Of a DNA stretch of 64,000 bases, positions 10,839 to 55,882 are shown piece by piece (position 1 is the first letter of the stretch; the number at the start of each line of letters is the position of its first letter). The notes under the pieces were generated by a model. The model ran no database searches, was not told the origin of the DNA, and was given only the letters and a program-made list of their open reading frames with translations. The translations under genes and the position numbers were made by a program. This stretch comes from Sedimentisphaera salicampi (GTDB lineage Bacteria; Planctomycetota; Phycisphaerae; Sedimentisphaerales; Sedimentisphaeraceae). The stretch is from positions 2,528,995 to 2,592,994 of the forward strand of contig NZ_CP021023.1 of assembly GCF_002117005.1 (NCBI RefSeq). Reading direction: 5' to 3'.

Positions 10839-10879
10839 GAGTAGCAAACGAAATTATACTAATCTGTAAGAGGTTGAAA

Positions 10880-11512
10880 ATGAGTGCAAAAAGTTTTATT
10901 GGCCGTAGCGGCTTGGTTTTGATTGCGGTTCTGCTGGCAAGCGGAACAGCGATGGCAAAACGCTACATGCTCTACACCGACTCGACACTCGCACAGGCCG
11001 GCGTGGTAACTCCTTCGGTGAGTCAGGCTCACTACTACGAAGAAGGCGAAGTGGTTACTATCGCAGCTCAGCCATATAAAGGGTATGAGTTTGTGTGCTG
11101 GATTGGCGATGTAGAAAACCCAGACAGCAGATCTACCCGAGTGGTTATGGACGGACCGAGGTACGTGGTAGCGTCTTTTCAGGTGGCTGAATCAGACGAG
11201 GCTGTTGAGGTAGGAATTAAAAGTTTGGAAGAAGGCGGAAGGAGCCGCAACATACCTGCTCCAAACATCGGATATAACGATTCAATCAGCAGTACAGACT
11301 ACAGCAGCAGTGTGGAGAGTTATCTCGCGGCAGCAGAAAGCCCGGGTACACTTTCCAAGCCTGATGTTACTAATGTCAGCGCTCCTGATTACAGAAGGCC
11401 TTCTGATGTGAATCCAAATCCGATCATCCCTGAACCTGCTACAGTTACATTACTGGCGGCAGGAGCTGCAGGGCTCGCGGCGAGAAGATTAAGAAAAAAG
11501 AATTCCAACTAA
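10880..11512 (+). CDS. Secreted PEP-CTERM anchor-domain protein with one divergent InlB-like repeat
   Basis: A 210-residue exported protein of unknown function. The signal peptide (LVLIAVLLASGTAMA) is followed by a single divergent InlB-B/bacterial-repeat unit (GYEFVCWIGDVENP ... PRYVVASF, roughly residues 65-100), a low-complexity Ser/Asn/Pro stretch, and a C-terminal PEP-CTERM signal: IPEPATVTLLAAGAAGLAA then RRLRKKNSN. PEP-CTERM tails are cut by exosortase and tether proteins to the envelope or exopolysaccharide; no exosortase gene is in the window. AAGAGG (10868-10873) selects ATG 10880 over the TTG at 10874. Its stop overlaps the region leading into the giant repeat protein, 35 bases downstream, so the two probably form an operon. 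Confidence 0.8.
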   Translation: MSAKSFIGRSGLVLIAVLLASGTAMAKRYMLYTDSTLAQAGVVTPSVSQAHYYEEGEVVTIAAQPYKGYEFVCWIGDVENPDSRSTRVVMDGPRYVVASFQVAESDEAVEVGIKSLEEGGRSRNIPAPNIGYNDSISSTDYSSSVESYLAAAESPGTLSKPDVTNVSAPDYRRPSDVNPNPIIPEPATVTLLAAGAAGLAARRLRKKNSN

Positions 11513-11547
11513 TGCTGTTTGTTATAAATAGATGCATGGAGATTAAA

Positions 11548-14500
11548 ATGAAAAGATTCAAATTAGTTTCTCTCAGTATTATGGCTCTGGCCTCTATCGC
11601 ACTTGCCTTCTCAGGCGGCGATGGCTCACAGGCTAATCCTTATCAGGTTGCCAATACGGACGATTTGCAGGAAATAGCGACTAACAATCCTAACTCCGGC
11701 GATTACTTCGTTCTTACAAGCAGCATCACAGGTGTTGACTTTGTTATTGGCGGTAGCTTTAATGGTAGTTTTGATGGAAACGGCAACAGTATTGACGTTT
11801 CTTATCAAGGTAATCTCACAGGTGATGACGCTCTGTTCCAAGAGCTAGGGCCGCAGGGGGTTATCAAGAATTTACTCGTAAATGTTGACTACGACCTCAA
11901 CGCTTACAGCGGTAACTGGGGTTTTGTAGCAGGTGTTGCCGGTTTCAATAACGGCGGCCTGATCGACAACTGCTCGGTTGCCGGTTCAATCAGCGCTATG
12001 GACACAGGCCTTGCTGTGGGCGGTATCACCGCTTCAAACGCAGGTACTGTTCAGAATTGCGAGTCTGAGGTGTCTATCGCAACAGACTACGGCTGCAATG
12101 CAGGCGGTATCGCAGGTCAGTCGGTAGGTATGATTGAAGAATGCTCATTCATGGGGAATATGGATGTGGCAGATTCCGGATTTGCGAGCATAGACGACCA
12201 AGAAAACCCGACAATAGCGGGCGGTATCGTTGGTTACGCTTATGACGGTGCTGAGAATACCAACCTTTCTGTTAATGCTGAAATCATCGCTGATGCAAGC
12301 GGTGTGGTAGCAGGCGGCGTTGTTGGTTATCTCGAGTCCGGCACAGTAACCGGCGCTGAAATGGCAGGCGGAAGCATTACAGTTCCATCCGCTCCTTTCA
12401 CCGGCTCAATTGTCGGCGGTATCGCAGGCCAGGCGCTTGACAGCTCAATTCAGCAGGCCGTACTCGCTGAGTCTGCCTCAGTAATAGGCGGTCGCTACAG
12501 CGATACAGGCGGTATCGTGGGCTACAGCGGAATTTCAACTGCCGGCGCAAGCGCAGCAGTTAGCGAAGCTGCTTCTCTTGGCTACGTTGAAACAGGCTAC
12601 CTCGGCTATGCAGGCGGAGTTGCCGGACGCAATTCAAGCGGAATGGTAACAAACTGCTATGCAGCGGGTAATGTTGTGGCCAATGAGACAAGCGGCGATA
12701 ACACAGTACTTGGCGGTGTAGTTGGCCTAAACGAAACAGATAACCAAAACGGCGGCGAAGCCCCTGTTCAGTACGTGCACTATGCAGGCACTATAATGGA
12801 CAAGCCGGACGGCGAAGGATACCTCGGTGCAGTAATAGGCTGGAATAATGGGGGAAGCCTTGACAGCGCTCACTACGACAGCGACTTGGCAGGCGTTAGC
12901 GAGTTTATCGGCTGGGGCGACCAGAACGAGACAAGCTCAACAGCTCTTACCTCAGCCCAGATGGCGCAGGAGGGAAATTTCCCGAACTTCAATTTCGCTC
13001 AAATTTGGTCTATGGGAGCTGCCTATCCGGTACTCACGTTCCAGATTGGCGGAGCCTCTATGACATACAATCTGGATCAGGGGTACAACTGGATTTCATT
13101 CCCTGTTCTCCCGGATGATGATTCACTCGAAAACGTACTTGCTGACTACAGCAATATTGCTCAGGACTTCGACTCAATCGTATCTGCAGCAGGCGAAACT
13201 GCTCAGTACTATCAGGGAGTCTGGTATGGTACGCTCGAAGTTATCGAGCCGGGTAAGATGTATATACTTAACAGCGGAGCTGGCGGAAGCTTTGATGTAA
13301 ATGGTTTCCCTGTTGACCCGCAGACAGAGATTACTCTCGTTTCCGGCTGGAACTGGATCGGTTCTACGCTTCAGGATCCTGTAAGCCTTGATGATGCTTT
13401 CCAGAACGCTCAGCTCAGCGATTTCGATACAATCGTTGCTCCGAGCGGCCAGACTGCCCAGTATTATCAGGGAGCTTGGTATGGAACGCTGGATACGTTA
13501 GTGCCCGGTGTTGGGTATAAACTTAACGCAGCAACAGCACAGTCTTTTTTTTTTGATGGTGCCGTAGCTCCAGCAAGCCAGTCCGACCCGCAGCTTTCTG
13601 GCGAAATTCGCCCAGCTGGGGCACCTGACTGGACTTCACCCACTGGCCTCCAGAACAATATGATAATCACGGCTTACGTGGTTGACGAAAATATGCAGCA
13701 GATTGCCGTCGCAGACGGCAGTCTGCTTTCTGCTTGGACCCCGGGAGGAGAAATTGCAGGAGTTACAGAAATAACTGACGGGCCATCCAAGAAATACTTC
13801 CCGCTTACGGTTTTCAGCAATGAAACAGAATTGGAGGGAATGACCTTAAAGGTTTATGACGCAGCAGCAGACGCTGTTCACAATATACAGGGTGCCTTTA
13901 AGTTTGAATCAAACAGTTCGGTCGGTAATGTGGTTAACCCTGTTGAAAAACAGATAACGCAGGGAACAACAACCTATACTGTTACATTTGATGCCGGCGA
14001 TCATGGAACAATAACAGCCGGCGATGCAGTTCAGGAAATAGAAGAAGGCGGCTCAGCAACAGCTCCGACAATTGAAGCAGATGAAGGCTGGCAATTTACC
14101 GGATGGGACATTGATTTTACAAACGTTCAATCCAGTATTACTGTAACAGCTCAGTATGAGCTTGTAAGCGGTTATTACGTTGTAACATTTAGTGAGGGAA
14201 CTCACGGTACTATAACCGCAGGCGATACCGAGCAGATTGTTTACGAGGGCGGCTCAGCAACAGCTCCGACAATTGAAGCAGATGAAGGCTGGGAGCATAC
14301 CGGCTGGGATACAGCTTTCGATAATGTAACAGAAGACTTAACTGTAACAGCCACATACTCAGAAATTCCGCAGTACACAGTTACATTTGAAGCGGGAGCC
14401 AACGGAAGCATAACAGCAGGCGATGAAGTGCAGACTGTTTATGAAGGCGACGACGCAGCTGCTCCAACAGTTACTGCAAATGCAGGCTGGGATTTCACAG

Positions 14501-17500
14501 GCTGGGACACAGATTTTACAAACGTCCAGTCCGACCTTACAGTTACTGCAGAATATACAGAAGAGATTTACACAGTAACTTTCGCAGCTGGAGCTAACGG
14601 AACAATTACAGCCGGCGATGCGGTACAGAACATTCCTTACGGCGGCTCAGCGACAGCTCCAACAATTGAAGCGGATGCAGGCTGGGAGTTTGTAGGCTGG
14701 GACACCGCTTTTGATAATGTTACAAGCGAGCTTACAGTTACAGCTCAGTATGAGCTTAAGACTTACACGGTAACTTTCGTTGCCGGCGAGAACGGAACAA
14801 TTACTTCAGGTAATGAAACGCAGGAAGTTGACCACGGCTCAGCAGCAGCAGAGCCGACCGTTGAGCCTGCTGAAGGTTATGTTTTCGAAGCCTGGGATAA
14901 GGCATTTAATAACGTTACAAGTAATCTTACTGTTAATGCCACTTATTCATCTTTACCTGAGTATATAGTAACTTTCGAATCGGGCCCGCATGGTACTATA
15001 ACTAGCGGACAAGGCGTTCAAGTTGTTTACGAAGGCGGCTCAGCGACAGCTCCAACAATTGAAGCTAATGAGGGCTGGGAGTTTGCAGGCTGGGACACAG
15101 CTTTTGATAATGTTACAAGCGAAATAACTGTAACAGCCACATACTCAGAAATTCCGCAGTACACAGTTACATTTGATGCGGGAGCCAACGGAAGCGTAAC
15201 AGCAGGCGATGCAGTGCAGACTGTTTACGAAGGCGAAGACGCTGTTGAGCCGACAATTGAAGCCAGCGAAGGCTGGGAATTCATCGGCTGGGATGCAGAC
15301 TTCACAAACGTTCAGTCTGACCTGACAGTAACAGCACAGTATGAGCAGATTACATATACCGTAACGTTTATGCCGGGTGCTAACGGTACTATAACCGCAG
15401 GCGACACCGAGCAGACAATCGCTTACGGCGGCTCAGCGACAGCTCCGACGATTGAAGCTAACGAAGGCTTGGAGCATACCGGCTGGGATACAGCTTTTGA
15501 TAACGTTACAAGCGACATAACTGTAACAGCCACATACTCAGAAATTCCGCAGTACACAGTTACATTTGATGCGGGAGCCAACGGAAGCGTAACAGCAGGC
15601 GATGCAGTGCAGACTGTTTACGAAGGCGAAGACGCAGTTGAGCCGACAGTTACAGCGAATACCGGCTGGGAATTCATCGGCTGGGATGCAGACTTCACAA
15701 ACGTTCAGTCTGACCTGACAGTAACAGCACAGTATGAGCAGATTACATATACCGTAACGTTTATGCAGGGTGCTAACGGTACTATAACCGCAGGCGACAC
15801 CGAGCAGACAATCGCTTACGGCGGCTCAGCGACAGCCCCGACTGTTGAAGCAGACGAAGGTTGGGAGCATACCGGCTGGGATACAGCTTTTGATAACGTT
15901 ACAAGCGACATAACTGTAACAGCCACATACTCAGAAATTCCGCAGTACACAGTTACATTTGATGCGGGAGCCAACGGAAGCGTAACAGCAGGCGATGCAG
16001 TGCAGAGTGTTTACGAAGGCGAAGACGCTGTTGAGCCGACAATTGAAGCCAGCGAAGGCTGGGAATTTACAGGCTGGGATGCAGACTTCACAAACGTTCA
16101 GTCTGACCTGACAGTAACAGCACAGTATGAGCAGATTACATATACCGTAACGTTTATGCCGGGTGCTAACGGTACTATAACCGCAGGCGACACCGAGCAG
16201 ACAATCGCTTACGGCGGCTCAGCGACAGCTCCGACTGTTGAAGCAGACGAAGGCTGGGAGTTTGCAGGCTGGGATATGATCTTCGATAATGTTACCAGCG
16301 ACCTCACAGTAACAGCTGTTTACAGCGAGCTGCCTGATGTTTACACCGTAAACTTCTATGCAGGCGATTACGGGGAGATACTCTCAGGTTCAAGCCAGCA
16401 GGTAGATGAAGGCGAGGCGGCAGAGCTTCCAATGCTCGTGCCGGACTTCCAGTACAGATTTGAAGGCTGGTATAACGGCGATACAAGGTATTCACTTTCC
16501 GAGCTGCAGAATGTAACAGAAAATATGGAGCTCACGGCTGCATATTCTCTCCAGCCGGATCCGGAACCTGCAGATGCAGATTTCAACGGCGATAAGTATG
16601 TAGGTCCTGAGGATCTTGCGGTTATGCTTGATTCCTATCTGACGGCTGAAGGTTCGCTCGCAAGCGAAACCGCAGCAGAGCTCTTTGCAGGCGATCAGTT
16701 CGGCGATATAGACAGCAACCAGTGGGTTGACAACGGCGACTTCTATCTATTCAGCAATAACTGGCTCAAGAGTTTTGAAGACAGCTTTACATACAATCTC
16801 GTACAGGGATACAACTGGATCTCATTCCCTGTTCTGCCTGAAGACAAGAGCCTTGCCAATGTAATGGAAGGTTACGAAGAGATTGTAGAGAACTTCGATA
16901 ATATAACAGCCTCTAACGGCAAAACAGCTCAGTATTATAACGGCCAGTGGTACGGAACGCTTCAGAATATTGTACCTACAAGAATGTATGTGCTTTACAG
17001 TGCAAACGGCGGTACGTTTGAAGTTTCCGGAAGCGAGGTAGGACCTGATGGAGCTATGAATCTTTATCAGGGCTGGAACTGGCTGCCGTTCTTCCAGAAG
17101 CAGAGCATGTCTGTGCAGGATGCCTTCCAGCATCTTGATGTCCAAGACTTGGATCAGATTATAGCACCGAATGGTGAGGTTGCTCAGTACTACGGAAATC
17201 AGTGGTACGGAACTCTCGATACGCTTGAGCCGGGTGTTGGATATAAATTCAACGTATCTAAAGCTCAGGGATTCAGCTATACACATCAGGTTTCTCCGCT
17301 TGAAGCAATGTCTATCGAGACAGCCGCTGTTAATAAACCTAACTGGGATGCTCCGCAAGGGCTTTCAAACCAGATGAAGGTTTATGCCAAGATCGTTGAT
17401 GAAAATGGCGATCCGATAGCAACAGCAAACGGCAGCGAGCTTTCTGCTTGGACTCCGGACAACCCGAGCAACATTGCCGGTGCTACCGACAAGGTGATTC

Positions 17501-19797
17501 TCGGTCCTGCCGGAAATCACTTCCAGCTCGTTATTTTCAGCGATAAGAACTCGGTTCCGGGTATGGATCTGAAGGTTTATGATGCCGATTCAGATAAAAT
17601 CTACGATATCGTTCAAACGGTAGATTTCCAGAAGGACACCGAGCTGGGCAATGTTGTTACCCTTCAGGTTTACAGCACAGATGCCGGTATGCCGGTTAAT
17701 GTGCCGGACTGGGAGAGTCCTACGGGGCTGATGAACAGCATGAAGGTTTACGCCAAGGTTGTTGATCAGAATGGCGACCAGATCGCAACAGCTGATAACA
17801 GTCAGCTCTCAGCATGGACACCCGCAGGACAGGTTGCAGGTGTTACAGATGAAGTTGTCTCCGGACCGGTTGATGATCACTTCCAGCTTGTAGTGTACAG
17901 CGATGAAACATCTGTTCCGGGCATGGGACTGAAGGTTTACGATGCTGACGCTGATCAGGTTTATGAGATTATCCAGAGGCTGGACTTCGAGGCAGACACC
18001 GATCTTGGTAATGTCCTCACTCTTCAGGTTTACACAATCGGTGAAAACGCACCGGACTGGCAGTCTCCAAGCGGCCTGAATAATCAAATGCAGGTTTACG
18101 CTATGGTTACCCAGGGCGGCGTTCAGATCGCTAAGCCGGACGGAAGCCTTCTTGCTGCAATAACTCCTTCTGGAAACATTGCAGGCGTAGCTGAAGTGGC
18201 AGCGAATCCTTCAGGAACTAAATACTTCCCGCTCACAATTTTCAGCGACGAGGATTCATTTACAGGGCTGATATTCAAGGTTTACGATGCAGCAACTGAT
18301 ACCGTTTACGATATAAACGAAACGCTTGACTTCCAGGCCGATGCTCAAATAGGAAACGTAACCTCTCTTGAAGAGTTCACGGTTTCAGGCGAGCAGGCGA
18401 ATTCTTACGACGTAAACTTTATGTCTGGGGAGAATGGAACACTTCTGGGGCAGACCAGTCAAACCGTTGATCTTGGCGAGAATGCCACTGAGCCGATTGT
18501 TGAAGCAGACGAGGGCTGGGAATTCATCGGCTGGGACGGCAGCTTTGAAAATGTTATCTCAGACCGTACGCTCACTGCTCAATATACCGATGTTATTTAT
18601 ACGGTAGTATTCCAGGCAGGCGATAACGGAGCCATAACAGCAGGCGATGAGCTGCAGACAGTTCCATCAGGCGGCGATGCGGTAGAGCCTACTATTACAG
18701 CGGATGCTGGATATACCTTCACAGGCTGGAATGCTGATTTTACTAATGTAACATCAGATTTAACAGTAACAGCTCAGTACGAAGTAACCGGATACACCGT
18801 GGACTTCCTCCCGGGAGAGAACGGAAGCATAACAGCAGGTGATGATTCGCAGATTGTACCTCACGGACAGGCTGCTGCAGAGCCTACTGTAACAGCGGAT
18901 GCCGGATATACCTTCACGGGCTGGGACACAGCTTTCGATAACGTTACAAGCGACCTTACAGTAACCGCTCTGTACGAAACAGCTGAGTTTACTGTAACAT
19001 TCCTGCCGGGCGACAAGGGACTTATAACTGCAGGCGATTCGGTACAGACCGTTGTTTACGGCGGGGCTGCTGCAGAGCCAACAGTTACGCCTATAGTCGG
19101 CTATGAATTTGACGGCTGGGATATTGCATTCGATAACGTTACAAGCGACTTAACAGTAACCGCTCAGTATAAAGAAGGTACCGGCGACGAAGATGAAGAT
19201 GGAACTGAAGAAGATCCTTGGATAATTGACGACCCAACAGACTGGCAGAAGATTATTGATGCACCTTCAGACCACTTCAAGGTTACCGGGGATGTTGATT
19301 TCGGATCAAATCCTCTAACTAACCCGCTTAAAGTGCCTTTTACCGGTCATCTGTACTCAGAAACCGGCGCAACCCTGTCTTACGGATTTGATGCCTCTGG
19401 CCTTGATTACGTAGGCTTGTTTGCTGTAGTATCCAACGGAGCTCTCATAGAGAACCTCGATTTCGACGTTGACGTAACCGGCCGCAATGTAGTCGGGGGT
19501 GTTGCTGGCTATTTCGCAGACAGCACTATCAGCAACTGCTCAATAAGCGGCAATGTAACCGGCGAGAAGTTCGTTGGCTCGTTTGTCGGAGAGAACAGAG
19601 GCCAGATTATTGGCTGCAGCTCTGATGTAACATTGAGCGGCGATGATGTAGTCGGCGGTATCGCCGGAACCAACAGAGGTTCTGTGAGCGGCTGCAGCTA
19701 CAGCGGTATTTATACAGGCGGAACAGTGGGAATCGTTGGGTCGAGCCCATCCGGTTCTGTATCTGATTCTGATGTAGTTACAGGCGGCGGCGAATAA
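11548..19797 (+). CDS. Giant secreted repeat protein (GLUG, InlB-B repeats, dockerin-like)
   Basis: A 2749-residue exported protein with signal peptide LVSLSIMALASIALAF. GGAG at 11538-11541 sets ATG 11548 over the ATG at 11512. Order by approximate residue: GLUG-type Gly-rich repeats (30-500); a 'YNWISFPVLP' module pair (505-670); one 'SAWTPGG-IAGV-LKVYDA' module (690-790); thirteen InlB-B/Flg_new repeats of about 65 aa, each with YTVTF...GWxFxGWD...TVTA (810-1670); a dockerin-like EF-hand pair (DFNGDKYVGPEDL, DIDSNQWVDNGDF; 1674-1744); a second WISFPVLP pair (1747-1914); three more LKVYDA modules (1930-2280); four InlB-B repeats (2286-2540); terminal GLUG repeats (2551-2749). There is no PEP-CTERM or LPXTG tail and no catalytic motif. 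It is probably an adhesin or surface scaffold, by analogy with repeat content only. Near-identical 393-bp units show recent internal expansion. Confidence 0.85.
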   Translation: MKRFKLVSLSIMALASIALAFSGGDGSQANPYQVANTDDLQEIATNNPNSGDYFVLTSSITGVDFVIGGSFNGSFDGNGNSIDVSYQGNLTGDDALFQELGPQGVIKNLLVNVDYDLNAYSGNWGFVAGVAGFNNGGLIDNCSVAGSISAMDTGLAVGGITASNAGTVQNCESEVSIATDYGCNAGGIAGQSVGMIEECSFMGNMDVADSGFASIDDQENPTIAGGIVGYAYDGAENTNLSVNAEIIADASGVVAGGVVGYLESGTVTGAEMAGGSITVPSAPFTGSIVGGIAGQALDSSIQQAVLAESASVIGGRYSDTGGIVGYSGISTAGASAAVSEAASLGYVETGYLGYAGGVAGRNSSGMVTNCYAAGNVVANETSGDNTVLGGVVGLNETDNQNGGEAPVQYVHYAGTIMDKPDGEGYLGAVIGWNNGGSLDSAHYDSDLAGVSEFIGWGDQNETSSTALTSAQMAQEGNFPNFNFAQIWSMGAAYPVLTFQIGGASMTYNLDQGYNWISFPVLPDDDSLENVLADYSNIAQDFDSIVSAAGETAQYYQGVWYGTLEVIEPGKMYILNSGAGGSFDVNGFPVDPQTEITLVSGWNWIGSTLQDPVSLDDAFQNAQLSDFDTIVAPSGQTAQYYQGAWYGTLDTLVPGVGYKLNAATAQSFFFDGAVAPASQSDPQLSGEIRPAGAPDWTSPTGLQNNMIITAYVVDENMQQIAVADGSLLSAWTPGGEIAGVTEITDGPSKKYFPLTVFSNETELEGMTLKVYDAAADAVHNIQGAFKFESNSSVGNVVNPVEKQITQGTTTYTVTFDAGDHGTITAGDAVQEIEEGGSATAPTIEADEGWQFTGWDIDFTNVQSSITVTAQYELVSGYYVVTFSEGTHGTITAGDTEQIVYEGGSATAPTIEADEGWEHTGWDTAFDNVTEDLTVTATYSEIPQYTVTFEAGANGSITAGDEVQTVYEGDDAAAPTVTANAGWDFTGWDTDFTNVQSDLTVTAEYTEEIYTVTFAAGANGTITAGDAVQNIPYGGSATAPTIEADAGWEFVGWDTAFDNVTSELTVTAQYELKTYTVTFVAGENGTITSGNETQEVDHGSAAAEPTVEPAEGYVFEAWDKAFNNVTSNLTVNATYSSLPEYIVTFESGPHGTITSGQGVQVVYEGGSATAPTIEANEGWEFAGWDTAFDNVTSEITVTATYSEIPQYTVTFDAGANGSVTAGDAVQTVYEGEDAVEPTIEASEGWEFIGWDADFTNVQSDLTVTAQYEQITYTVTFMPGANGTITAGDTEQTIAYGGSATAPTIEANEGLEHTGWDTAFDNVTSDITVTATYSEIPQYTVTFDAGANGSVTAGDAVQTVYEGEDAVEPTVTANTGWEFIGWDADFTNVQSDLTVTAQYEQITYTVTFMQGANGTITAGDTEQTIAYGGSATAPTVEADEGWEHTGWDTAFDNVTSDITVTATYSEIPQYTVTFDAGANGSVTAGDAVQSVYEGEDAVEPTIEASEGWEFTGWDADFTNVQSDLTVTAQYEQITYTVTFMPGANGTITAGDTEQTIAYGGSATAPTVEADEGWEFAGWDMIFDNVTSDLTVTAVYSELPDVYTVNFYAGDYGEILSGSSQQVDEGEAAELPMLVPDFQYRFEGWYNGDTRYSLSELQNVTENMELTAAYSLQPDPEPADADFNGDKYVGPEDLAVMLDSYLTAEGSLASETAAELFAGDQFGDIDSNQWVDNGDFYLFSNNWLKSFEDSFTYNLVQGYNWISFPVLPEDKSLANVMEGYEEIVENFDNITASNGKTAQYYNGQWYGTLQNIVPTRMYVLYSANGGTFEVSGSEVGPDGAMNLYQGWNWLPFFQKQSMSVQDAFQHLDVQDLDQIIAPNGEVAQYYGNQWYGTLDTLEPGVGYKFNVSKAQGFSYTHQVSPLEAMSIETAAVNKPNWDAPQGLSNQMKVYAKIVDENGDPIATANGSELSAWTPDNPSNIAGATDKVILGPAGNHFQLVIFSDKNSVPGMDLKVYDADSDKIYDIVQTVDFQKDTELGNVVTLQVYSTDAGMPVNVPDWESPTGLMNSMKVYAKVVDQNGDQIATADNSQLSAWTPAGQVAGVTDEVVSGPVDDHFQLVVYSDETSVPGMGLKVYDADADQVYEIIQRLDFEADTDLGNVLTLQVYTIGENAPDWQSPSGLNNQMQVYAMVTQGGVQIAKPDGSLLAAITPSGNIAGVAEVAANPSGTKYFPLTIFSDEDSFTGLIFKVYDAATDTVYDINETLDFQADAQIGNVTSLEEFTVSGEQANSYDVNFMSGENGTLLGQTSQTVDLGENATEPIVEADEGWEFIGWDGSFENVISDRTLTAQYTDVIYTVVFQAGDNGAITAGDELQTVPSGGDAVEPTITADAGYTFTGWNADFTNVTSDLTVTAQYEVTGYTVDFLPGENGSITAGDDSQIVPHGQAAAEPTVTADAGYTFTGWDTAFDNVTSDLTVTALYETAEFTVTFLPGDKGLITAGDSVQTVVYGGAAAEPTVTPIVGYEFDGWDIAFDNVTSDLTVTAQYKEGTGDEDEDGTEEDPWIIDDPTDWQKIIDAPSDHFKVTGDVDFGSNPLTNPLKVPFTGHLYSETGATLSYGFDASGLDYVGLFAVVSNGALIENLDFDVDVTGRNVVGGVAGYFADSTISNCSISGNVTGEKFVGSFVGENRGQIIGCSSDVTLSGDDVVGGIAGTNRGSVSGCSYSGIYTGGTVGIVGSSPSGSVSDSDVVTGGGE
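13545..13554 (+). repeat. Ten-T homopolymer within the giant gene
   Basis: Ten consecutive T residues encode the Ser-Phe-Phe-Phe of QSFFFDG. The equivalent place in the second copy of this module (about 17,270) has no such run. One-base slippage here would truncate the protein near residue 670. Confidence 0.7.
14365..16330 (+). repeat. Higher-order 393-bp tandem repeat inside the giant gene
   Basis: The 20-mer ATTCCGCAGTACACAGTTAC begins at 14365, 15151, 15544 and 15937. Spacings are 786, 393 and 393 bases, that is exact multiples of 393. Each 393-bp unit encodes two InlB-B repeats (66 + 65 residues). The units beginning 15151, 15544 and 15937 are almost identical at DNA level, whereas the two units from 14365 to 15150 are more diverged. 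Confidence 0.85.
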
Positions 19798-42084: not shown

Positions 42085-43794
42085 ATGGCAAAAAAAGAAC
42101 TTTCCTTCGAAACCGATGCGAGAGCATCGCTGCTTAGCGGTGTTGAAAAGCTCTCGGCGGCCGTTAAATCAACACTCGGGCCGCGGGGACGCTGCGCAAT
42201 CATAGACAAGGGCTGGGGAAGCCCGACTGTAACCAAAGACGGGGTTACGGTAGCAGAAGAGATCGAGCTGTTCGATAAGAATGAGAATATGGCCGCTTCG
42301 CTTGTTAAGGAAGCTGCGAGCAAAACAAACAAAAAAGCAGGCGACGGCACAACCACTGCTACAGTACTTGCTGAGGCCATCTTCAAAGAGGCCTACAGGA
42401 ATCTTGCAGCTGGCGCAGACCCTATGGCAATGAACAGGGGCATTAAGAAGGCCGTTGATGCTGCTGTAAAGCAGCTTGCTAAGATCTCAAAGCCTGTAAA
42501 CATTGAGAGCAAGAAGGATATTGTGAGCATCGCTTCAATCTCTGCTAACAACGATAAAGAGATCGGCAAGCAGATGGCCGAGGCATTTACGAAGGTTGGC
42601 AAGGACGGAGTGATTACTGTGGAAGAGGGCAAAGGCCTTGAAACCTCAGTCGATTACGTAGAAGGTATGCAGTTTGACCGGGGCTTTTTATCCCCGCATT
42701 TTGCCACCAACAACGACAGTATGCTTTGCGAGATGTCAAAGCCTTACGTACTTATCTATGAGGACAAAATCAGCAATGTGCAGAAGATTGTTCCTCTCCT
42801 TGAAGAGGTTGCCAAGACAAAAAGGCCTCTTCTTATCATTGCAGAAGATGTTGAGGGCGAGGCCCTTGCAACTCTCGTGGTAAACAAGATGAGAGGCGTG
42901 GTTGATGTGTGCGCTGTTAAGGCTCCCGGCTACGGCGACCGCAGGAAGGCAATGCTCGAAGATATTGCTGCCTGCACTGGCGGAGAGGCTGTGATGAAGG
43001 ACTTGGGCGTTGAGCTCGACAGCCTTCAGCTTGCACAGCTCGGACAGGCCAAGAAAATAGTTGTTGATAACGACAGTACAGTAATCGTTGAAGGTGCTGG
43101 GGCTGAAAGCGATATCGAGGCCCGCATAAATATGATTAAGAGCGAGATCGAAGCCACAACAAGCGATTACGATCGTGAGAAGCTTCAGGAAAGAATGGCC
43201 AAGCTAACCGGCGGAGTTGCTCAGATTAACGTTGGCGCCGGCAGCGAAGCCGAGATGAAGGAAAAGAAGGCAAGAATCGAAGACGCCCTTCACGCAACAA
43301 GAGCGGCACTTGAAGAAGGTATTGTAGCAGGCGGAGGCGTTGCCTTTGTTCGCTGCATGGATGCCGTGAAGAAGCTCAAGCTCAAAGGTGATGAAAAAAC
43401 CGGAGCGAATGCTGTTGCCAATGCTCTTAAAATGCCCTGCCACTGCATTGCAGAAAATGCTGGTGCTGTTGCTAATCTCGTTGTTAATAACGTTTTGGAA
43501 GGCGAAGAGGGCTATGGATATAACGCAAACACCGGAAAATACGAAGACCTCATTGAGGCTGGTGTGATTGATCCGGTAAAGGTTACGAGGATTGCCCTTG
43601 AAAACAGTGCAAGCGTTGCAGGCCTGTTGATGACAACAGACTGCGTTGTAACACAGAGCCCTGATGAAGATTCCGGCGCAGGCGCTGGAATGGATCCGTC
43701 CGGCGGCATGGGCGGTATGGGCGGTATGCCCGGCATGGGCGGCATGGGCGGCATGGGAGGAATGGGCGGTATGCCCGGTATGGGAATGATGTAG
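42085..43794 (+). CDS. groEL1: Chaperonin GroEL, paralogue 1 (GGM-tailed)
   Basis: 60-kDa ATP-dependent chaperonin (569 aa). The ATPase motif [14 protein letters not shown], the apical [13 protein letters not shown] and the C-terminal [15 protein letters not shown] are present. It ends with an unusually long GGM/PGM repeat (about 30 residues, [20 protein letters not shown]...). CAGGAG precedes ATG 42085. No CIRCE (TTAGCACTC-N9-GAGTGCTAA) is found in the 216 bases upstream, so HrcA control is not supported. Followed by groES and a second groEL on the same strand. Confidence 0.93.
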
Positions 43795-53203: not shown

Positions 53204-53758
53204 TCAGCCGAAGATGAGGATTTTTATGCCCAGAGCTATAAGTATAATCCCTCCGGCAAATTCGGTTTTATTCTCGAAAAGATGTCCCGCTCTGCAGCCT
53301 AATTCAGTGCCGATAATGCTCAATAAAAATGTTATTACGCCTATAATCGTAACGGCAAACCACACGCTCGCATCAAACAGGGTTATTGTAAAGCCGGCGG
53401 CCAGAGCATCAATGCTGGTGGCAAAAGCAAGAACTATAATTGCCGCTACGTCTGCTCTGACTTTTCCCGCTCTTCCGGTATGAAGCAGTTTGCCAGCTTC
53501 GTATATCATTTTTATCCCCAGAAATGACAGGATCGCAAATGCAAGCAGATTTGCTGCATTCTGAAGGTATTTAGAAAAAAAACCTCCTGCAAAAAAACCG
53601 GCAAGAGGCATTAGAGCCTGAAAAAGCCCGAACATCATGGCCATAAACATTGATCGGGAAAATTTCAGTTCTTTGTATGTTGCCCCGATTGCCAGCGATA
53701 CGGAAAATGCATCCATCGCAAGGCCTAAAGCAAGGGCTGTTATTTCTATATAAGGCAT
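53204..53758 (-). CDS. mntP: Manganese efflux pump MntP
   Basis: Six-helix Mn(II) exporter of 184 aa. The paired repeats begin ALALGLAMDAFSVSLAIGAT and VLAFATSIDALAAGFTITLF, each carrying the conserved metal-binding Asp. ATG 53758 gives a length equal to family members; the longer frame to 53902 would add a spurious hydrophobic segment. No mntP riboswitch or MntR box was recognised upstream. Confidence 0.92.
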   Translation of the reverse strand: MPYIEITALALGLAMDAFSVSLAIGATYKELKFSRSMFMAMMFGLFQALMPLAGFFAGGFFSKYLQNAANLLAFAILSFLGIKMIYEAGKLLHTGRAGKVRADVAAIIVLAFATSIDALAAGFTITLFDASVWFAVTIIGVITFLLSIIGTELGCRAGHLFENKTEFAGGIILIALGIKILIFG

Positions 53759-53941
53759 AGCTGAAATTGTAAACCGGCTGAGGAGAATAATCAAGTAATT
53801 GAAAAATGAGCAAAAAACTGCCAATTGAACAAAAGCCAGAAAAAATGCAAAGTGGGGCGATAGAAATCCTTCAGGAAAAGTGCGTTTTAACACAATAAAC
53901 AAGCCCTCAACGAAAAATATATGAACTTGCGGGATGGCCGG

Positions 53942-53990
53942 GTGATAAGTTTTAAGTAATAAGTGATAAGTTTTAAGTAATAAGTGATAT
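53942..53990 (+). repeat. 21-bp tandem repeat
   Basis: GTGATAAGTTTTAAGTAATA(A) is repeated exactly at 53942-53962 and 53963-53983 and begins a third time (GTGATATGTTTCAAG). Lies between mntP and the HEAT protein in 210 bases of spacer. Confidence 0.7.
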
Positions 53991-54112
53991 GTTTCAAGTT
54001 TTGGGGATTGGGGGATTTGTTTTTAATTGACACCTCGATTAGACAAATTATAATCCTTTGAAAGTAATTATTCGTTTTTAAAGTTCGGCGAACACCTTTT
54101 TGGAGACAATAG

Positions 54113-55882
54113 ATGTCTATTAAAATCTGTAAGATATGTTTGCTGGCGGCAATGCTTTCGTTTACATCGCTGCTCAGCGCTGCTACTACTAAAGAAAACT
54201 GGAACGACTTCCTGCACTACACAGCAATTGGCCGGTATGAGCTTGCAAAGAGCAAGGCCGAGGCGATTATAGAAAGCGAGCCGGATCCGGTAGAGATGCT
54301 TGAGCTCACTCAGGAAAATCCCCGCGGATATTCGATCCTGCTCAGGGTTTACAACAGCAACGAACAGCTCAAAGACGCCGCCTCATCGATTATCGATATT
54401 ATTGAAGAAGGGCGTTACATCAAAAGGACTGACCCGGAAATCATCAGGCAGGAGATTAAACGCCTCAGCACAACTATAAGAGGCCGAATCAAGGCCGAGA
54501 AGCGGCTTCGAAATTCAGGCGAGTTTGCCGTGCCTTATATGCTTGATGCGATTGGCGATGAGTCCCGCAAGGACGAGATGCCTTATATCACAGCAGCCCT
54601 TGGGAAGATGGGCAGGGATGCAGTGAGGCCGCTCTGCGCAGCATTGCAGATGAAGGATGTGGCGGTTAAGTCTGAGGCGGTTCGTGCTCTAGGGAGCATC
54701 GGTTATTCAGAGGCGCTTCCGTATCTCAAGCACGTTTATGAAACTGCTGAAACGGAAGAGCTCAAAAAGCTTGCAGCTAAAAACCTGCAGAAGATCAAGG
54801 GCTCTTCCCTTCAGGTTTCTGCATCTGATCTGTTCTTCGCCCTTGGTGAAGACTACTACTACCATAAGGATTCGCTCAAGCCGAACGCAGAATTTGATTT
54901 TGCAAATGTTTGGTTTTGGGATAAAACTCAGAAAAGACTCTCCCGCGAAAAGGTTGAACGCGGATATTTCTTTGAGCTGATGTGTATGCGCAGCTGTGAG
55001 TGGTCTCTCAAGGCAGATCCCGAAACAGGCGAGGCAATTGCCCTCTGGCTCGACGGCTTCTTCAAGGCTCAGCAGACCGAAATTGCGATGCCTGAGTATT
55101 TCGGTGATGGTCATGCAGACGCTATGACCTATGCTGTAACAGCAGGCCCTGAATACCTCCATCAAGCCCTTTCACGTGCGATAAAGGATAAGAACAACTA
55201 TATCACCCTCAATCTCGTAGAGGCGCTTGCAGCAAGTTCCGGCGAGGCTTCCCTGCTTGAAAGCTTTGGAACGAGCCAGCCGCTTGTGGATGCACTTGAA
55301 TACGATAACACCGCCGTGCAGCTCAGCGCAGCTATCGCTCTGGGCGGGGCGAATCCAACGAGGGATTTCGTTGGCAGCTCACTTATAATCGAGCGTCTCA
55401 GCACTGCGATTATGCAGGAAAGTGCCGAAGAGCTCGGCGAGGATAAGGCCGCAGAATATGCTGACAGGGCATTTGATGTGCTCGATCAGCTCTGCTCTGC
55501 GAGGAATAAGATTGTGGATGTGTCTAAGGCTCAGAAGCCTCTGATCAGGGTTATCCGCTCAGACAGCGATAAATACCGCATTGAAGCGGCTCAGGTGCTC
55601 GCATATCTCAAAACAGCAGAGGCTCAGAAGTCCATTGCGAATGTTGCCTTGAGCGAGGATTTTGATAAATCCGTACGTATGAGCGTGTTCGATTCGCTCA
55701 TCAATTCGGCCAAGCTCAACGGCAGCAAGCTAACAGATGAACAGATAGACAAACTCTATTCAATGACAGCTTCGAGGGCGGTAGATCCTGAGCTGAGAGA
55801 ATCATCAGCCAGTGCTTACGGTTCGCTGAACCTCCCGAGCGAGAAGGTGAAAACTCTGATACTCGATCAGGCCAGAAGCTGA
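54113..55882 (+). CDS. Exported HEAT-repeat protein
   Basis: A 589-residue protein of unknown function: signal peptide ICLLAAMLSFTSLLSA; helical HEAT/PBS repeats appear at about 145-230 (ALGKMGRDAVRPLCAALQMK, KSEAVRALGSIGYSEALPYL) and again from about 360 onward (ALGGANPTRDF and similar). These normally form protein-binding superhelices. TGGAGA precedes ATG 54113. Followed by a strong terminator, so monocistronic. Confidence 0.8.
   Translation: MSIKICKICLLAAMLSFTSLLSAATTKENWNDFLHYTAIGRYELAKSKAEAIIESEPDPVEMLELTQENPRGYSILLRVYNSNEQLKDAASSIIDIIEEGRYIKRTDPEIIRQEIKRLSTTIRGRIKAEKRLRNSGEFAVPYMLDAIGDESRKDEMPYITAALGKMGRDAVRPLCAALQMKDVAVKSEAVRALGSIGYSEALPYLKHVYETAETEELKKLAAKNLQKIKGSSLQVSASDLFFALGEDYYYHKDSLKPNAEFDFANVWFWDKTQKRLSREKVERGYFFELMCMRSCEWSLKADPETGEAIALWLDGFFKAQQTEIAMPEYFGDGHADAMTYAVTAGPEYLHQALSRAIKDKNNYITLNLVEALAASSGEASLLESFGTSQPLVDALEYDNTAVQLSAAIALGGANPTRDFVGSSLIIERLSTAIMQESAEELGEDKAAEYADRAFDVLDQLCSARNKIVDVSKAQKPLIRVIRSDSDKYRIEAAQVLAYLKTAEAQKSIANVALSEDFDKSVRMSVFDSLINSAKLNGSKLTDEQIDKLYSMTASRAVDPELRESSASAYGSLNLPSEKVKTLILDQARS

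Follow-up and report, generated by a model that had tools for sequence, protein, structure and literature searches.

How does one gene come to hold three nearly identical copies of a two-domain unit, by what step were they added, and does the length of the protein change with them? The question is raised by a gene for a giant secreted protein of Sedimentisphaera salicampi that lies in a stretch of 64,000 nucleotides, hereafter the window. The reading that best fits our observations, to which we give a probability of roughly 0.75, is that the protein carries a stalk of InlB B-repeats in which a diverged alpha-beta pair of repeats has been copied by RecA-type unequal exchange after the split from a sister species.

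The giant protein and its repeats

The gene lies on the forward strand at 11548-19797 and, read from the ATG at 11548, encodes the 2749 residues originally predicted; the frame is open over 2761 codons (11512-19797), and use of the ATG at 11512 would give 2761 aa. The start at 11548 yields a signal-peptide-like N-terminus, followed in order by a GLUG head, paired GWNWIS-type modules, an array of 13 InlB B-repeats, a dockerin-like segment, GWNWIS-type modules once more, a second array of four InlB B-repeats and a GLUG tail, such that GLUG motifs are present at both the N- and C-terminal ends. The signal peptide, GWNWIS-module and dockerin-like labels were assigned by reading the sequence, a dockerin half-match scored under the cut-off, and the remaining modules are without a Pfam name. 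A search of the protein sequence for a cell-surface anchor, including the sortase type, recognised none. Immediately upstream, and abutting the giant gene, a small forward-strand gene (10874-11512) encodes an InlB-B/PEP-CTERM protein that is found at the same location in the sister species with 96% identity; over the N-terminal part of the giant protein the corresponding identity is 88%. The PEP-CTERM signal belongs to this adjoining gene, the giant protein itself having its GLUG head and tail. Both genomes, this one and that of the sister, carry one exosortase gene, in each case away from the PEP-CTERM gene. As a secreted, repeat-rich protein with GLUG ends, the giant protein appears adhesin-like and is probably located at the cell surface, with the 13-repeat array most likely forming its stalk. 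A contig scan for relatives, from which the protein's own genome was left out, returned distant matches only, the best with 55% identity in Verrucomicrobiaceae.

The 13 repeats (A01-A13) occupy 13975-16545 on the forward strand, against 13978-16554 as first proposed. They belong to PF18998, matched by the giant protein over nine stretches (2.1e-69, 229.9 bits against a cut-off of 23.6), and to PF09479, matched over six (2e-59, 198 bits against 27). In a two-repeat model built from the window's own dimers (mean pLDDT 96.8) each repeat is predicted to form a domain of ~65 residues, and this model aligns to the Listeria InlB B-repeat 2y5p with a Foldseek probability of 1.00, a TM-score of 0.65 by target, a Z of 6.1 and an rmsd of 2.0 A over 59 of 72 residues. 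The SHIRT domains of Sgo_0707 gave weaker structural matches (Z 4.8-4.9), and a four-repeat model reached a pLDDT of 95.7 and a pTM of 0.62. Searching PDB sequences with a single sequence returned chance matches only, while a 16-repeat profile found InlB 2y5p weakly. That profile also matched 4q1q (TibA) with an E of 0.0058 over 26 columns, which was taken as chance. A Z below 8 is weak alone, and the sequence profiles agree with the modelled structure in assigning the repeats to the InlB B-repeat family and fold.

Tandem Repeats Finder scores the array as the strongest tandem repeat in the window (period 393, 5.4 copies, 14204-16316, score 2348). Elsewhere in the window, a 9-bp GGCGGCATG repeat of 9.2 copies (43702-43784) ends a 569-aa ORF (42085-43794), where it would presumably encode a Gly-Gly-Met tail resembling that of GroEL, and a 21-bp repeat of 2.8 copies with 94% matches (53942-53999) falls between the ORFs 53204-53902 and 54113-55882.

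The 393-bp unit

The 20-mer ATTCCGCAGTACACAGTTAC occurs exactly at 14365, 15151, 15544 and 15937, spaced in multiples of 393 as originally predicted, and has no fifth copy on the forward strand of the window. The repeats fall into two types, alpha (65 aa) and beta (66 aa), that mostly alternate. A two-repeat unit of 66+65 residues had been proposed for the array; 65 and 66 aa do alternate in repeats 6-11, with repeats 3-4 being 65+65 and 5-6 being 66+66. The alpha repeats A07, A09 and A11 share 93-98% DNA identity and the beta repeats A08 and A10 share 96%, whereas alpha and beta share only 58-62%. Like-type monomers are therefore far more similar than neighbouring ones, the property by which a higher-order repeat is recognised.

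The recently amplified tract comprises three copies of the 393-bp alpha-beta dimer on the forward strand, at 15124 to ~16260; the similarity of the third copy is incomplete at its 3' end. Exact identity at offset 393 begins at ~15124 and marks the start of the tract. Comparing the DNA of unit 1 (15151-15543), unit 2 (15544-15936) and unit 3 (15937-16329), all forward, gives 90-95% identity over the full length and 95-97% over the first 320 bp, with 18-40 differing positions. Units 1 and 2 differ at 18 of 393 bases (95% identity), and units 1 and 3 at 9 of the first 320 (97%) and at 32 of 393 overall, the last ~70 bp of unit 3 being diverged, array-edge sequence. Three near-identical consecutive units had been claimed, and this holds for the first two in full and for the third to ~16256, beyond the first 320 bp of which it diverges. 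The copy of the 20-mer at 14365 lies outside the recent amplification, in an older diverged dimer (repeats 2-3) among the older diverged repeats A02-A04 (14176-14763, forward). At the other end stands a divergent capping repeat, A13 (16342-16545, forward), orthologous one to one with B09 of the sister species and with a counterpart, C10, in a paralogue.

For recombination by RecA, identity over some tens of bases is needed. Between 15124 and 16300, exact matches extend to at most 13 bp at monomer offsets and 10 bp at trimer offsets, against 143 bp at 393 and 164 bp at 786. The two-repeat size of the unit would follow from this, because long exact matches exist only in the dimer register and not in that of the monomer, and homologous exchange is thus likely only in two-repeat steps. 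The differences between units 1 and 2 are themselves unevenly placed. Ten of the 18 fall inside one 28-bp patch of unit 2 (15636-15663), a clustering equalled in 0 of 20,000 shuffles, and the patch has the 'VTAN' variant, which is also that of the paralogue and of the older repeats of alpha type. This clustering shows that patchwise conversion acted alongside unequal exchange.

The sister species and the paralogue

The sister species (G001) belongs to the same genus and is assembled as one contig; one genome per species was compared. Its orthologue of the giant gene is syntenic, with the EPSP synthase and PEP-CTERM genes upstream and the porin-like and aldo/keto reductase genes downstream. The main array has 13 repeats here and 9 in the sister orthologue, and array length therefore differs between the two species as represented by one genome each. 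The span from the first repeat to the cap is 789 aa here and 527 aa in the sister, and the difference of 262 equals 2 x 131 aa. The sister has grown recently on its own account by a 198-bp monomer, as seen in its near-identical repeats B05-B07 and a 368-bp exact match at a 198-bp offset. Also in the sister genome, the N-terminal part of the giant gene has a paralogue whose frame is broken in two where 11 bp are duplicated in tandem (L037, 5205-5231); the gene could be defunct, or the duplication could act as a switch prone to slippage.

Synonymous divergence orders these events. Among A07, A09 and A11 dS is 0.047-0.133 and between A08 and A10 it is 0.089, rough values given the few sites per repeat, while the orthologous flanks differ from the sister by a dS of 0.54-0.58 and the capping repeat by 0.65. 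As the amplified repeats lie far below the orthologous flanks, the amplification followed the separation of the two species; judged by these values, rough in size and clear in order, it is both post-speciation and array-specific. Indeed, in a tree of the repeats the amplified central ones do not pair across species. The second array, A14-A17 (18406-19185, forward), is one-to-one orthologous with that of the sister, the tree pairing A14-B10, A15-B11, A16-B12 and A17-B13 with strong support for three of the four pairs, at a dS of 0.78-1.28. On this pairing the C-terminal array serves as an internal control without turnover, and the one-to-one pairs at the C-terminus, set against the unpaired central repeats, indicate that a stable array and one that is turning over exist within one protein.

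A paralogue (L033) lies 450 kb from the giant gene in the same genome (2086000-2100000, minus strand), in a 2258-aa frame with a separate 393-bp array of 4.3 copies. Its 3' part is 93% identical to the giant gene in DNA (dS 0.22), the two share exact blocks of 200, 177 and 144 bp, and their similarity stops abruptly after CAGATGAAG. Of the two genomes, only its own has close relatives of its GLUG head; the GLUG modules repeat with an 831-bp period. The paralogue is a chimera in which a GLUG head from a genome-specific family is joined to the giant gene's array, GWNWIS-type and dockerin-like parts. Its sequence reads as if a segment of the giant gene had been attached to a GLUG protein, and the two may have exchanged sequence afterwards.

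Mechanism and known systems

We propose the following model for the growth of the array. An ancestral alpha-beta pair would have diverged until alpha and beta shared no recombinogenic stretches of DNA, after which exchange would be confined to alpha with alpha and beta with beta, so that repeats would be gained and lost as 393-bp pairs. Once the two species had parted, unequal exchange of the RecA type between sister chromosomes, accompanied by some conversion in patches, would have produced the three near-identical units of the mid-array, the outer repeats retaining their identity during the central amplification. The likely consequence is a stalk whose length shifts in 131-aa steps, as in the Periscope Proteins discussed below, and which may, as first proposed, still vary between cells or strains of the species. 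RecA is encoded in the genome. Recent tandem amplification in the 393-bp register is well supported by the sequence, and unequal homologous exchange, probably RecA-dependent, is the mechanism we infer to be best. The recent unequal crossing-over of the original prediction accordingly stands as a recent amplification in this register, borne out by low dS, exact blocks in the dimer register and a sister array two units shorter with a different local amplification; what has to be added is that patchwise conversion also acted.

The alternative that fares best, although we consider it unlikely, is RecA-independent replication slippage, in which template switching between copies spaced by 393 bp produced the extra units. 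Slippage readily uses direct repeats that adjoin each other and are identical over long stretches, and it would likewise preserve the register, but the unit length and the exact blocks of 119-164 bp fall comfortably inside the range of homologous recombination, and both the blocks shared with the paralogue and the patchy differences show recombination or conversion acting on the repeats. Somewhat less probable still is that length has not changed recently and that gene conversion made a constant set of old repeats alike where they stood. The clustered 28-bp patch of unit 2 and the sequence common to the giant gene and the paralogue would fit such a process; conversion without change of length can give neither an orthologue shorter by exactly two units nor two species that amplified units of different size. 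We give little credence to collapse or false expansion during assembly. Identical copies could be collapsed, but the array lies in a single 3.19-Mb contig, its longest exact repeat is 164 bp and its reading frame is intact; furthermore, the differences between the units and the comparable array of the separately assembled sister genome argue against a gross artefact. Finally, the notion that selection on the amino-acid sequence keeps the units alike draws on the conserved fold and on the few changes between amplified repeats, which give a dN/dS of 0.3-0.55, but is ruled out as simple protein conservation by the near-identity of synonymous sites too (dS 0.05-0.13), whereas the protein's own C-terminal repeats, of one family with these, share only 49-70% DNA identity.

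Beyond amplification by unequal exchange, we consider it doubtful that the alpha-beta alternation is itself under selection, both avoiding misfolding between identical neighbours and locking recombination to the two-domain step. Such an array could change length fast while never putting identical domains side by side, and the sister array, with its identical adjacent monomers, would be the exception and the test case.

The InlB B-repeat family is common in the order, with members in 115 of 118 genomes. Among 20 arrays surveyed in the order, none of the others had exact repeats longer than 68 bp; most came from fragmented draft genomes, in which near-identical repeats would be lost, and the present array cannot be called rare on this basis. 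Periods near two monomers occur in other arrays of the family (426 bp in L081, 420 bp in L054 and 441 bp in L060), and the two-repeat unit itself is therefore not unique. An InlB-B-type array in a Treponema MAG (L071, 3987-7833) has ~17 monomers of 222 bp and also shows a higher-order period of 1539 bp, about seven monomers. A literature search returned nothing specific on the copy number of InlB B-repeats or on higher-order repeats in bacteria. Change of repeat number in bacterial surface-type proteins is a known process, of which this array is a clear case. With two single-contig sister genomes, several InlB-B arrays and a stable control array within the protein, it can be read directly from both genomes when a surface-type protein gained repeats, in units of what size and in which register. 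This extends the idea of the variable-length repeat protein to an InlB-B protein in a lineage that is probably free-living, and offers a simple rule, testable elsewhere, in which shared exact DNA determines the size of the step.

The higher-order repeats of centromeric alpha satellite similarly consist of diverged monomers amplified as a multi-monomer unit; the array described here is coding, bacterial and of very few copies, and the likeness is one of analogy only. The Listeria InlB B-repeat (2y5p; PF18998/PF09479) is of the same fold and family, but at ~25% identity and in another protein context, with 17 copies in one protein here. The two-domain E-G5 unit of SasG and Aap is about 130 residues long. 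As in those repeats (PMC9704523), the unit of amplification is two domains, although E and G5 are distinct domains and both halves of the unit here are diverged InlB B-repeats. Closest are the Periscope Proteins, among them SasG, Aap, Rib and Sgo_0707, as described in sections of Whelan et al. 2021 (PMC8201768) and of the review PMC9704523: these too have long tandem domain repeats of highly identical DNA in secreted multidomain proteins, and vary in length between relatives with recombination as the proposed cause. The SHIRT domain of Sgo_0707 is moreover among the weaker structural matches (Z 4.9). The domain itself is different, the InlB B-repeat not being named in those sections of PMC8201768 or PMC9704523, and the giant protein is without a sortase anchor or a known N-terminal adhesin domain. 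Periscope Proteins are defined by folded domains of more than 50 residues that follow one another in tandem and are highly identical in DNA. Here these are found in the array middle only, as just part of the array is near-identical, and its variation in repeat number is seen between species where theirs, in the sections cited, is among related strains. The array is best filed as a Periscope-Protein-like, variable InlB B-repeat stalk, of an ordinary kind and unusually well documented.
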